DNA from: a virus
Direction: 5' to 3' (one strand)
DNA: 30,299 nucleotides
IMG/VR virus record: IMGVR_UViG_3300000235_000006
Span: 9,424-39,722 of that record
Shown: piece by piece, positions 34 through 3,883 of the stretch
How positions within the stretch are numbered: position 1 is the first letter of the stretch
Layout: each line of letters opens with the position of its first letter
The notes under the pieces: model-generated
Told to the model about the DNA's origin: nothing
Seen by the model: the letters and a program-made list of their open reading frames with translations, nothing else
Databases searched by the model: none
Position numbers and translations under genes: made by a program

Positions 34-885
34 ATGAGTAATTTCAAGGATTATCTAAATACGTATGTTTTTGAAACAGATTTACTCGGTACAGGTAAGA
101 CATTAAAATTCAAACCCATTGTTACACACCAGATAAAGAAGCTTTTATTGTATGAAGCATCACAAGACCCAATGAGTATTGAAGAAGCTTTAGATGAGGT
201 ACTGAACGAGTGTGTGATTTCACCGGAAGGTTTTGATGTAGGCGACTTATATCTGCAGGATAGATTCTATCTTTTAGTTGAATTAAGACAAGCTACACGG
301 GGTAAGACTTACAGCTTCCAGACAACTTGTTCAAAGTGTGGGTCACAGACACAACATGTAATTGATTTATCAAAGTTAAAAACAAAAACCCTTAATAGAT
401 ATGAGAAAAAGACTCAACCGATTAAAAAATCTATTAAAAAAGGTAAGTTGATTGATTTATCAGAAGAAAAGATAGAAGTTCAAACTAATGACCATAAGAC
501 AAGTTGGGATGAAGTGGTCGTAAATGATAAGATTTCCGTTAAATTACATCTCATAACAAGGAATATGCAGAAAGAAGCTATAAAAAGGTTTAATGATAGT
601 CATAATGACGAAGAAGTTTCCGAAATACAACGAACCATTGAAATAACAACATTTTTATATGCATTATCCATTGTATCTATCACTACACCTAATGGAACGG
701 ATGAAAACCTATCATTAGAAGATCGTATTTTCTTTTTAGATAATATTCAACAATCAGAGCAAGAGCTTATAACATCTTGGTTTGACAAAAATGATTTTGG
801 TATAGATTTTTCATTCAATGTAGTATGTAATCAATGTAAAAATGCTGAAACAAAGGCGGTTCCTGTAGAAAATTTTTTTTACTAA
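34..885 (+). CDS. T4 gp26-like baseplate hub assembly protein with zinc ribbon
   Basis: A 283-residue protein resembling the T4 baseplate protein family that includes gp26, which helps assemble the central hub. It is longer than T4 gp26 (about 208 residues). Two CxxC pairs are visible, C99/C102 in CSKCG and C265/C268 in CNQC, and they probably bind one zinc ion. The start is well supported by GGAGG at about 22-26, eight bases before ATG 34. The gene heads the tail module, and the frame ends Asn-Phe-Phe-Tyr within a run of eight T. That run contains a possible -1 slippery site leading into the next ORF, so the gene may be the short product of a chaperone pair analogous to lambda G/GT. The family call is from sequence character and gene order; the chaperone analogy is inference. 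Confidence 0.65.
   Translation: MSNFKDYLNTYVFETDLLGTGKTLKFKPIVTHQIKKLLLYEASQDPMSIEEALDEVLNECVISPEGFDVGDLYLQDRFYLLVELRQATRGKTYSFQTTCSKCGSQTQHVIDLSKLKTKTLNRYEKKTQPIKKSIKKGKLIDLSEEKIEVQTNDHKTSWDEVVVNDKISVKLHLITRNMQKEAIKRFNDSHNDEEVSEIQRTIEITTFLYALSIVSITTPNGTDENLSLEDRIFFLDNIQQSEQELITSWFDKNDFGIDFSFNVVCNQCKNAETKAVPVENFFY
870..876 (+). promoter_or_regulatory. candidate -1 ribosomal frameshift slippery site (A AAT TTT)
   Basis: The heptamer AAATTTT fits the X XXY YYZ rule with AAT and TTT in the upstream frame, two codons before the TAC-TAA end of the gp26-like frame. The -1 frame is open from 849 through 1079, so one slip would fuse about 281 residues of the first protein to about 68 from the second frame, roughly 349 in total. 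A purine-rich AAAGGCGG lies at 852-859, about ten bases upstream, where a Shine-Dalgarno-like stimulator would sit. No strong downstream stem is obvious. Confidence 0.5.
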
Positions 886-890
886 TATAT

Positions 891-1082
891 GTGTTGTGTT
901 CGGGGATGAGTTTACATTCTATAACGGAAGATCAGTATTATCTGTCAAGTAAGGCTAATATTTCCATATCTGAAAGTAATAATTTACCAGATTTTGAAAG
1001 AGAAGCTTTTATAAATATGATTATAAAAGACATAAAAAACCACACGGAGAATGAAGCAGCGAAAGCTATGTTTAGAAAATAA
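891..1082 (+). CDS. small ORF after gp26-like gene, possible frameshift extension
   Basis: An acidic 63-residue frame that begins just after the gp26-like stop. Its own initiation signals are poor: GTG 891 has no Shine-Dalgarno sequence, and ATG 906 has only GGGG directly abutting it. The frame continues open upstream through the poly-T run, so it is better explained as the C-terminal extension of a -1 frameshift product than as a free protein. The segment YYLSSKANISISE followed by LPDFEREAF has the look of the short C-terminal parts of tail assembly chaperones. Its position corresponds roughly to T4 gene 51, next to 26, but I see no clear gp51 similarity. A terminator follows directly. Confidence 0.5.
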   Translation: MLCSGMSLHSITEDQYYLSSKANISISESNNLPDFEREAFINMIIKDIKNHTENEAAKAMFRK

Positions 1083-1185: not shown

Positions 1186-1431
1186 ATGAATACACAACCA
1201 AATCCTAATCCTAATAAAGCAAATACATCACCGGATTTTAATCAAAACTTAATAATTTTGAACGAATCAATTAATAAATTAAACGATTTATTAGTAAAGA
1301 ATAGTGTGGTTAAAACACCAAAGCCCATAGTAGCCGGAAAACAACAAGATGTAAGTACTAATTCCATTAATGACAATAGAACCACCCATTATGGGCAATT
1401 CTTTTTTCAAAAATATGGAAACTTTCTTTAA
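1186..1431 (+). CDS. small Asn/Pro-rich ORF overlapping the tape-measure-like gene
   Basis: An 81-residue frame from ATG 1186, just after the terminator, with only a weak purine-rich AAGAGAAA upstream. The N-terminus is low complexity (repeated Asn-Pro), followed by a helix-like segment INKLNDLLVKN. I do not recognise a family. The last ~60 bases overlap the start of the following large frame in the +1 register, around a TTCTTTTTTCAAAAA stretch at about 1400. It could be an independent small protein coupled to the next gene, or the true N-terminus of the tape-measure-like protein joined by frameshifting or separated by a sequencing error. The overlap is only 77 bases of common open frame (1355-1431). 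Confidence 0.5.
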   Translation: MNTQPNPNPNKANTSPDFNQNLIILNESINKLNDLLVKNSVVKTPKPIVAGKQQDVSTNSINDNRTTHYGQFFFQKYGNFL

Positions 1432-3883
1432 AAGAACTGCCACGACAACAATGTCATATACAATGTCTAAAACTGGTGATTATATATCAGGATTGTCAAA
1501 CGTGACATCAAGTGTTATGACGACTTTGTTTGGAAGAATACTGGATGATTTTAGACCAATAATAGATATAATGAAACTAACATCTAAATTTATGTTTGAT
1601 ATGGTCATAAAGCCATTGTCTAAATTAACATTTTCAATAGTAAAACTTCCATTTTCTATGATAGCTTCTTTTTTCACAAAAGACAGACAAACAGACAAAC
1701 TCACGAAACAAGTGCTTAAAAGTAATGATTCATTGAAAGGTATACTGAACGAGAACGAAAAACAGACGGAAGCCTCAAAAGAAAGAACAGTTCTTAATGA
1801 AAGTATGTTAGATGTTATATCATTACAGACAAAATTATTGAAAAAAATATCTTCTTGTAGTTGTAATAATGAGGAAGATAAGGAAGATAAGGAAGATAAG
1901 GAAGATAAGGAAAAAACATCAATTTTTGCCAAAATACCTAAAAGTATTGTCACGTCCATGAAAGGTGTTTTTTCTAAAATTCAACAGATACCCGTTATTG
2001 GCAGCATGATTAAGGTAATGTCCTTAATACCTAATGTAATGAAAAATGCGTTCACTGCAATTATGACACCAATTAAATTAGGATTTTCCTTTATATCTAA
2101 AGGAATTATGTCAATTGGTTCTGTAATTGGTGGTGGCATTTCAACAATAGGTAATCTTGCTTCACTTATCCCGTTTGTGGGCCCTCTTGTGGGCCCTCTT
2201 TTAAAGATTTTATTGCCTTTAGCGATAGGTGCTTTTGGTTTAAAGCTATTAGGGGGTACTTTTTCCGGTTTAATTGATGGACTTGAAAAAGCATTCCCTG
2301 AACAAGCCAAGGCCATAAGGGATTTCATAGATAATGATGTAAAGCCAATGATAGATAAAACAATGACATATATTGGGACTAGTTTTAAAAAATATGTTAT
2401 TGATCCTATACTTGTTAAACTGGGTCTTAAAGGTAAAGAATTAACAAAAGAAGAGAATAATGTTGTGGATAAAAGACTTGAAAAAGCTTATGGTTCAGAC
2501 CTAGAGAGAGTGAAATCGTTAGTAAACAAACCTAACCTTACTGCTAGAGAAAAATTTGATAAACGGAAATATTTACGTGACAAGGCCCATCTTGAATATA
2601 AACCGGCGAACGAAAGTAGTATTTTTTATTCTGAAGGTATAGAATCAATTAACTATGTAAAAGATTCATTGAAAAGTGCTCGTATACTTATTTTTGATAC
2701 AGCGAAAGAACTCATCCAATCTAAAAAAACAGGTGTGTCAAAGGCTACCGATAAGGATGTCTATGGTTCACAAGTTAATAGCCAACCGCTTTTTAATGTA
2801 AAAACAGGTGAAGAAGTAATAAAAAATAATATGAAGAATGATCCAATGGTTCGTAATGTTATACCTAACGAATTATCTGAAACAGATAAAACCATTATGG
2901 CACAGGTAGCACACCGTGAGTCCGGGATAAGGGATATACCTAGTGATGCAAAAAGAAAGGGAACTGATATACCGGTCGCATCTGGTGTATTCCAGTTCAC
3001 AAAGGCTACATGGAATACAGCAGCTTCAGCACTAGGGATCAGCACTTCTACAGGAATCTCGGATGACGGTAAAAGTTATGACCCATCTAAAGATGCTCGC
3101 CTTAATAGAGAACTGAGCATGAAAGCAATGGAGTATATGTTAAACAATTATAAAAAGTCATTAAGTATTATGAAAGAAGATTACAATTATAGAAATGTAC
3201 GGTTACTTCATTGGTTTGGCGCGGGTGATAGTAAAAAGATTATGAAATTGGCTAAAACAAATCCGAATGCTGCAATACCCCTAGACCAAAAGACTTTGGA
3301 AAAAAACAAGTTAGTAGGTGTTACCGTTGGTGAATTAATTAAACTTATAGATGAACAAGGTGATATCGGTAACATAAAAGATAAAATAACCTCATTGTTT
3401 GAAAATATGTTGAATTATACCAAAAAAGCTACTGGTTTTATAGGAGAAAAAGCATCTGATGCTGCTAAAACGGCATCTGATGCTGCTAAAACGGCATCTG
3501 ATGAAGCCAAATCCGCCACCGACTCTGCTAAAGAGGGTTTTACTGATTTCTTCACATTTATGAAGGATATGTTCTCTGATGTTACCGATTCCATTATGAA
3601 TTTGACATCAGATGATTTAAGGTATATAACAGCATACACACAGTCAGAAAGGGGTAGTGAAGCCATTGTATCTGCTGATAAAGAACTGGCGATGAAGAAA
3701 GCCGAGGTAAATTCTGATATTGAAAATAAGCCAGAACAAACACAACAGATAAATAGTATTGTAAATGGTGGAACAAGTGTTGTCACCCAGACCCCACAGG
3801 TACAGAGACATAGACAAAGCGATATACAATCAACTATTGGGCCTATGTTTGCTCTCAACATAATGAATTCTAATGAGGTATAA
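1370..3883 (+). CDS. tape-measure/hub-like tail protein with lytic transglycosylase domain
   Basis: The largest tail gene (837 residues), placed where a tape measure or gp29-like protein is expected. The N-terminal third is helical and hydrophobic. An EDK repeat lies near residues 169-183, preceded by a Cys-Ser-Cys. Strongly hydrophobic, glycine-rich segments span about 235-310. An SLT-type muramidase domain follows at about 500-650: probable catalytic Glu517 in AHRESG, then GVFQFTKATW at 539-548 and LLHWFGAGD near 612. A heptad-like SDAAKTA repeat and a polar C-terminus follow. The role would be length control plus local peptidoglycan cleavage during infection. None of the starts at 1370, 1391 or 1415 has a Shine-Dalgarno sequence, which suggests coupling to the overlapping upstream ORF. 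The muramidase fold is well supported; tape measure is inferred from size, hydrophobicity and position. Confidence 0.7.
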   Translation: MTIEPPIMGNSFFKNMETFFKRTATTTMSYTMSKTGDYISGLSNVTSSVMTTLFGRILDDFRPIIDIMKLTSKFMFDMVIKPLSKLTFSIVKLPFSMIASFFTKDRQTDKLTKQVLKSNDSLKGILNENEKQTEASKERTVLNESMLDVISLQTKLLKKISSCSCNNEEDKEDKEDKEDKEKTSIFAKIPKSIVTSMKGVFSKIQQIPVIGSMIKVMSLIPNVMKNAFTAIMTPIKLGFSFISKGIMSIGSVIGGGISTIGNLASLIPFVGPLVGPLLKILLPLAIGAFGLKLLGGTFSGLIDGLEKAFPEQAKAIRDFIDNDVKPMIDKTMTYIGTSFKKYVIDPILVKLGLKGKELTKEENNVVDKRLEKAYGSDLERVKSLVNKPNLTAREKFDKRKYLRDKAHLEYKPANESSIFYSEGIESINYVKDSLKSARILIFDTAKELIQSKKTGVSKATDKDVYGSQVNSQPLFNVKTGEEVIKNNMKNDPMVRNVIPNELSETDKTIMAQVAHRESGIRDIPSDAKRKGTDIPVASGVFQFTKATWNTAASALGISTSTGISDDGKSYDPSKDARLNRELSMKAMEYMLNNYKKSLSIMKEDYNYRNVRLLHWFGAGDSKKIMKLAKTNPNAAIPLDQKTLEKNKLVGVTVGELIKLIDEQGDIGNIKDKITSLFENMLNYTKKATGFIGEKASDAAKTASDAAKTASDEAKSATDSAKEGFTDFFTFMKDMFSDVTDSIMNLTSDDLRYITAYTQSERGSEAIVSADKELAMKKAEVNSDIENKPEQTQQINSIVNGGTSVVTQTPQVQRHRQSDIQSTIGPMFALNIMNSNEV
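1874..1909 (+). repeat. four tandem 9-bp repeats encoding Glu-Asp-Lys
   Basis: The unit GAAGATAAG occurs four times in perfect tandem inside the tape-measure-like gene and codes for repeated EDK. Copy number could vary by slippage in steps of three residues without breaking the frame. Confidence 0.9.
2177..2200 (+). repeat. two tandem 12-bp repeats containing GGGCCC
   Basis: GTGGGCCCTCTT is repeated exactly twice, encoding VGPLVGPL in the hydrophobic part of the tape-measure-like protein. The GC-rich palindromes stand out against the AT-rich background. Confidence 0.85.
3452..3493 (+). repeat. two exact 21-bp repeats plus a third partial copy
   Basis: GCATCTGATGCTGCTAAAACG occurs twice back to back and a third diverged copy begins at 3494. 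The encoded seven-residue unit (SDAAKTA) suggests a regular helical or coiled-coil spacer downstream of the transglycosylase domain. Confidence 0.9.

Follow-up and report, generated by a model that had tools for sequence, protein, structure and literature searches.

Overlapping gp26- and gp51-type reading frames in a T4-like virus: a tail assembly chaperone probably completed by -1 ribosomal frameshifting

The IMG/VR record IMGVR_UViG_3300000235_000006, a 46.8 kb virus record with a T4-like tail module, raises the question whether a gp26-like protein and the small open reading frame at its 3' end are two separate products, or a short and a frameshifted long form of one tail assembly chaperone (TAC). 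The window analysed here is a stretch of 30,299 nucleotides of this record; all features below lie on its plus strand. The initial annotation had proposed a programmed -1 frameshift that fuses the gp26-like protein to a short extension, and had suggested a search of homologous phages for the same slippery site and open -1 frame; both were found in every one of the 101 homologous loci compared.

Reading frames and gene order of the chaperone locus

The gp26-like open reading frame (positions 34–885) encodes the predicted short form of the chaperone, TAC-N, with 283 amino acids and the C-terminus VENFFY; read directly, its zero frame closes with the codons GTA GAA AAT TTT TTT TAC TAA (stop codon at 883–885), and T873 to T880 form a run of eight T. 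It matches the Pfam family T4_baseplate (PF12322) with an E-value of 8.4e-24 and 84.9 bits against a family cut-off of 24.5, and the baseplate hub family phrog_150 with an E-value of 1.6e-22. Positions 849–1079 are open in the -1 frame, exactly as initially annotated, with a terminating TAA at 1080–1082. Its portion past the slip site (879–1082; 67 amino acids plus stop) is the putative gp51 domain of the long form (TAC-C), identified by alignment to the extensions of relatives and by a modest match (E-value 6.4e-5) that places the -1 product in phrog_634, “baseplate hub assembly catalyst” (gp51); the -1 products of relatives match the same family with E-values of 3.6e-4 (contig L003) and 2.6e-31 (phage Syn1). 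A tblastn search of the GenBank phages with a 71-residue extension gave no match, and profile comparison was therefore required. The earlier identification of the two frames as gp26- and gp51-like agrees with these family assignments.

The genes 5' of the window are visible in contig L001, which is 100% identical to the window over the shared part of gp26; there, a tail sheath gene is followed by three tandem tail tube genes (gp19-like paralogues, positions 2015–3984 of L001) and then by the chaperone gene. The resulting gene order (tail tube genes, gp26-like ORF, small ORF in the -1 frame, intergenic hairpin, presumed tape measure gene) places the TAC locus between tail tube and tape measure genes, the latter assigned only weakly by profile, and it bears out the analogy to the lambda G/GT arrangement that had been drawn beforehand. 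The presumed tape measure gene is an 837-amino acid ORF encoding a large tail protein (1370–3883), named for its position and its matches to phrog_4067 (transglycosylase, E-value 3.4e-8) and phrog_4070 (tape measure, E-value 0.009). The gene seems to begin at 1186, past the terminator hairpin, and to run in one frame through 1186–1431 and in another from approximately 1370–1430 onward, with the frame change near TTTTTTC at 1402; in relatives it is a single ORF. This frame break is either an assembly indel or a second recoding event, and an exact-pattern search of IMG/VR returned no second copy of it.

The intergenic element between the TAC and tape measure genes (1096–1175) consists of ATGGATC, a spacer of 3–18 nucleotides, GGTCTAAAGG, and a hairpin of the intrinsic terminator type; it recurs in L003 (5328–5407), L014–L017 and L113–L118. 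TGGATC can pair with GGTCTA, and since this helix is nearly invariant, covariation is uninformative either way. The motif was found in 22 IMG/VR contigs; in L126 it also separates tail tube genes, and in L128 it precedes a different ORF; a search of Rfam gave no match, and an assignment to a known Rfam family was discarded. Six of the relatives (L122, L125, L130, L132, L136, L139) appear from their sequences to translate TGA into an amino acid; their open-frame coverage is 0.24–0.43 with TGA as a stop vs. about 1.1–1.3 with TGA read, and a TGA in gp26 sits at a conserved tryptophan. In the window, 6 of 34 genes use TGA as their stop.

The slip site and its conservation

The comparison covered the closest relatives, contigs L003/L011, L014–L017 and L113–L118, together with 80 cyanophage-type IMG/VR loci, and the GenBank phages Syn1, MA01, pf16, Milchi, YB07, AS-zj, R11Z, phi-pp2 and RHph_N34. 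A slippery heptamer of the form T TTT TTN occurs at the same position near the 3' end of the TAC-N gene, followed by gp51 in an open -1 frame, in all 101 loci and in all 49 members of the non-redundant set that remained after collapsing similar loci; the 45 Phe-Phe codon pairs elsewhere in these genes all lack this form (Fisher test, 3e-26, a P value that ignores phylogenetic dependence and is only indicative). The gp51 frame is always -1 and open across T TTT TTN in the window clade, in cyanophages, in pf16 and Milchi, and in Stenotrophomonas, KVP40-type, Ceceduovirus and Rhizobium phages. The gp26 protein of the window carries a mid-protein insertion, and its identity to the relatives found does not exceed about 49%; its nearest relatives, at 37–49% overall identity, have kept the slip site. 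T-rich heptamers are common in the window, which has 32% GC and TTTTTT[CT] at 33 start positions on the plus strand, so that the slip site by itself is no evidence of frameshifting; its conservation is. The comparative evidence for the predicted -1 frameshift is very strong, and the TAC is very probably encoded in two overlapping frames, with -1 ribosomal slippage on T TTT TTT giving the long form, TAC-NC.

The exact heptamer differs from the one first proposed. A AAT TTT (870–876) is present two codons before the stop, where it had been placed, and overlaps the conserved site, but is not itself conserved: cyanophages have TCT or AGT TTT TTC in its stead, and others GAT TTT TTC. The heptamer common to the relatives is T TTT TTY, and its version in the window, T TTT TTT (873–879; zero frame AAT TTT TTT), lies one codon further 3' within the T run. 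The gp26 genes of L003 and L011 end in AAT TTT TTT TTC TAA, and those of L014–L017 and L113–L118 contain AAT TTT TTC. The extension, initially counted as 68 residues, has that length if the shift occurs at 870–876, and 67 residues if it occurs at 873–879; the fusion comprises 349 amino acids both ways.

In low-GC genomes, RNA polymerase readily slips on long T runs, and the long form could in principle arise from its adding or omitting a U in the mRNA rather than from the ribosome; the T run is eight nucleotides long in the window and in L122, and nine in L003/L011 and L142. Yet nearly all homologues, including L014–L017 and L113–L118, have only six T followed by C (T TTT TTC), a run that is short for efficient polymerase slippage and, being in phase with the zero-frame codons, fits tandem tRNA slippage; what stays constant is the phase of the codons and not the length of the run. 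Polymerase slippage as the source of the long form is accordingly improbable, although the T8 run would permit it if the window is taken alone, and ribosomal slippage on the conserved heptamer is preferred.

Candidate stimulators of ribosomal slippage were sought on both sides of this heptamer. The Shine-Dalgarno-like sequence noted in the initial annotation, AAAGGCGG (852–859; about 13 nucleotides 5' of the slip site), is present as a weak match and is a possible weak stimulator, but it is not conserved in the window clade: a Shine-Dalgarno-like 4-mer at its position is found in none of eight window-clade representatives, and its counterpart is absent from L011, L014–L017, L115 and L118. A conserved stimulator of this type is consequently not supported for the window clade. 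Such elements are enriched in the cyanophage-type loci (16 of 34 vs. 0.8 expected), where they overlap a conserved Glu-Gly-Leu peptide. A pseudoknot or stem-loop 3' of the slip site gained no support either, as the 81 nucleotides at 880–960 fold no better than shuffled sequences (z -0.28). Stimulatory elements are not obligatory for frameshifted TAC loci. It is conceivable, although rather unlikely, that the window lineage has dispensed with Shine-Dalgarno and RNA stimulators and combines ribosomal with transcriptional slippage on its T8–T9 runs, in which case its ratio of TAC-N to TAC-NC would be unlike that of lambda or the cyanophages.

Some more distant loci show variants of this arrangement. 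Phage Cassandra (Arenbergviridae) shares the T TTT TTC site, followed by an open -1 frame without PHROG match; in three vibriophages of Ackermannviridae type and other affiliation (L103, L105, L106), the -1 frame is open but the site is looser, reading CTT TTT or CTT TTC. In Bacillus phage SP-15 (L007), the frame open past the end of gp26 is +1 and not -1, and the site reads GAA TTT TTT CAC; +1 or -2 frameshifting is possibly used there. A second independent copy of the window junction was not found in IMG/VR by exact pattern, and no relatives of the locus were found in cellular genomes.

The -1 peptide as a coding sequence

Selection on the extension was assessed in 27 cyanophage-type representatives, in the region 5' of the usual first ATG (codon 21 in most of them). 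Across -1 codons 3–20 past the slip site, differences by codon position number 1101/1002/2732, and the synonymous/nonsynonymous ratio is 1.31 in the -1 frame vs. 0.12 and 0.09 in the other frames. The concentration of changes in third positions of the -1 frame, together with this ratio, indicates that the peptide just past the slip site is selected as protein in the cyanophages, with purifying selection confined to the -1 frame. All loci compared have an open -1 frame, and the extensions of the window clade align over their entire length from the slip site onward.

These results bear on the possibility that gp51 is a separate, unfused small protein, translated by reinitiation at GTG891 or ATG906 after the stop codon at 883–885. 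Database annotations often give gp51 as a separate ORF, and GTG891, the first in-frame start after the slip site in the window, lies only five nucleotides past the stop, with ATG906 further 3'. However, GTG891 is not preceded by a Shine-Dalgarno-like sequence, in keeping with the earlier observation that the small ORF lacks a usable ribosome site, and in nearly all representatives none was found ahead of the earliest start codon available to the extension. The start codons of the small ORF vary between relatives whereas the slip site is constant, the 27 cyanophage-type loci have conserved, in their -1 frame, the peptide that precedes the usual ATG, and in T4 gp51 the domain is fused to a gp26-type domain. 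Some cyanophage-type loci contain GTG and TTG codons earlier than the usual ATG, and the use of such an unusual start codon in some of them is formally conceivable. Loss of the slip site, or a conserved start with a ribosome site for the small ORF, was sought among the relatives and not found, and a separately initiated gp51 is very improbable. An accidental overlap or a homopolymer sequencing error, with gp51 as a relic, might be imagined for an assembled virus contig with frequent T-rich heptamers in an AT-rich window, but is refuted by the identical site and frame relation in 101 loci and can be dismissed.

The preferred reading, -1 slippage by the ribosome, would operate as follows. Most ribosomes would stop at 883–885 and release TAC-N, and a minority would slip back one base on 873–879 and read on in the new frame as far as 1082, producing TAC-NC, a protein of approximately 349 amino acids in which TAC-N would be followed by a gp51-type domain of 67 residues. 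Lambda gpG and gpGT offer the best-supported mechanism; on their model, the tape measure protein would be coated by TAC-N, and subunits of the tail tube would be brought in by the C-terminal domain of TAC-NC, which would afterwards depart. We infer the ribosomal nature of the slippage, its efficiency and the chaperone action of the products; the slip site, the open -1 frame, their conservation, and the selection on the -1 peptide of the cyanophage relatives are direct observations. An AlphaFold2 model of the window gp26 (pLDDT 81) found its best PDB matches in YqbN (3KLU, Z 6.1), 3FGX (Z 5.7) and the tail assembly chaperone of HK97 (2OB9, Z 5.7), ahead of a fourth match with Z 4.5 and of matches with Z of at most 3.3 from rank 5, with a Foldseek E-value of 0.25; this similarity to a tail-chaperone-type fold is suggestive only.

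Relation to T4, lambda and other frameshifted chaperones

The likeness to lambda lies in arrangement and mechanism, a short chaperone and its longer, -1-frameshifted form being encoded after the tail tube genes and ahead of the tape measure gene, and is not based on sequence; the lambda slip heptamer is G GGA AAG and differs from that of the window. T4 has homologous proteins, equivalent to TAC-N and TAC-NC, but encodes them in two genes with an in-frame fusion, whereas the window has one locus with a slip site. In T4, gp26 and gp51 each have a gene of their own, the two on opposite strands, and the gp26 gene closes with TTC TTT and has no slip site; a run of six T at the gp26 end is absent from T4, AM101, G37-3 and PS2, all with separate gp51. 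T4 gp51 contains a complete gp26-type domain (residues 1–201, Pfam E-value 3.9e-52) followed by the gp51 C-terminus and is, on sequence comparison, a paralogue of gp26 that carries the extension as an in-frame fusion; together with the separate genes, this suggests that the short and long forms of T4 derive from a duplicated gene. T4 is said to use genes 26 and 51, and frameshifting is reportedly conserved in several T4-like groups. The earlier remark that frameshifting is not standard for gp26/gp51 is therefore valid for T4 itself, but not for other T4-like groups in which it has already been reported.

The chaperones of T4-like phages were identified by Vladimirov, Gautam and Davidson (2022, Virology 566:9-15), a study cited in the PRFect paper (PMC10885494) for T4-like phages with separate short and long genes, and in the paper on phage Adele (PMC12846349) for polyT frameshift signals in T4-like TAC-N genes. 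As far as these accounts describe them, the published loci share with the window a gp26-type TAC-N, a polyT slip site, a gp51-type domain in the -1 frame and an adjacent tape measure gene; the window differs in its T8 run and in having no clear Shine-Dalgarno stimulator. Frameshifted TACs of T4-like phages are already published, and the present locus adds an example, not a new mechanism. The TAC locus of Vandenendeviridae and Andersonviridae, as outlined for phage Adele (PMC12846349), similarly has a -1 frameshift at a T-rich sequence (GTTTTT) at the end of TAC-N, but belongs to other phage families and uses another slip sequence.

A 2016 review (PMC5009743) describes G-T frameshifting as widely conserved in long-tailed phages “except T4”; the comparison of 101 loci is consistent with the two-gene arrangement of T4 as a derived exception. 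In cyanophages, “gp51” has been annotated at only about 20% of the length of T4 gp51 (according to PMC3037559), a shortness that the probable frameshift explains, since the annotated ORF represents the frameshift extension only; gp51 in frameshifting genomes would be better annotated as a joined CDS. The window's unclassified T4-like lineage is placed in the frameshifting group.
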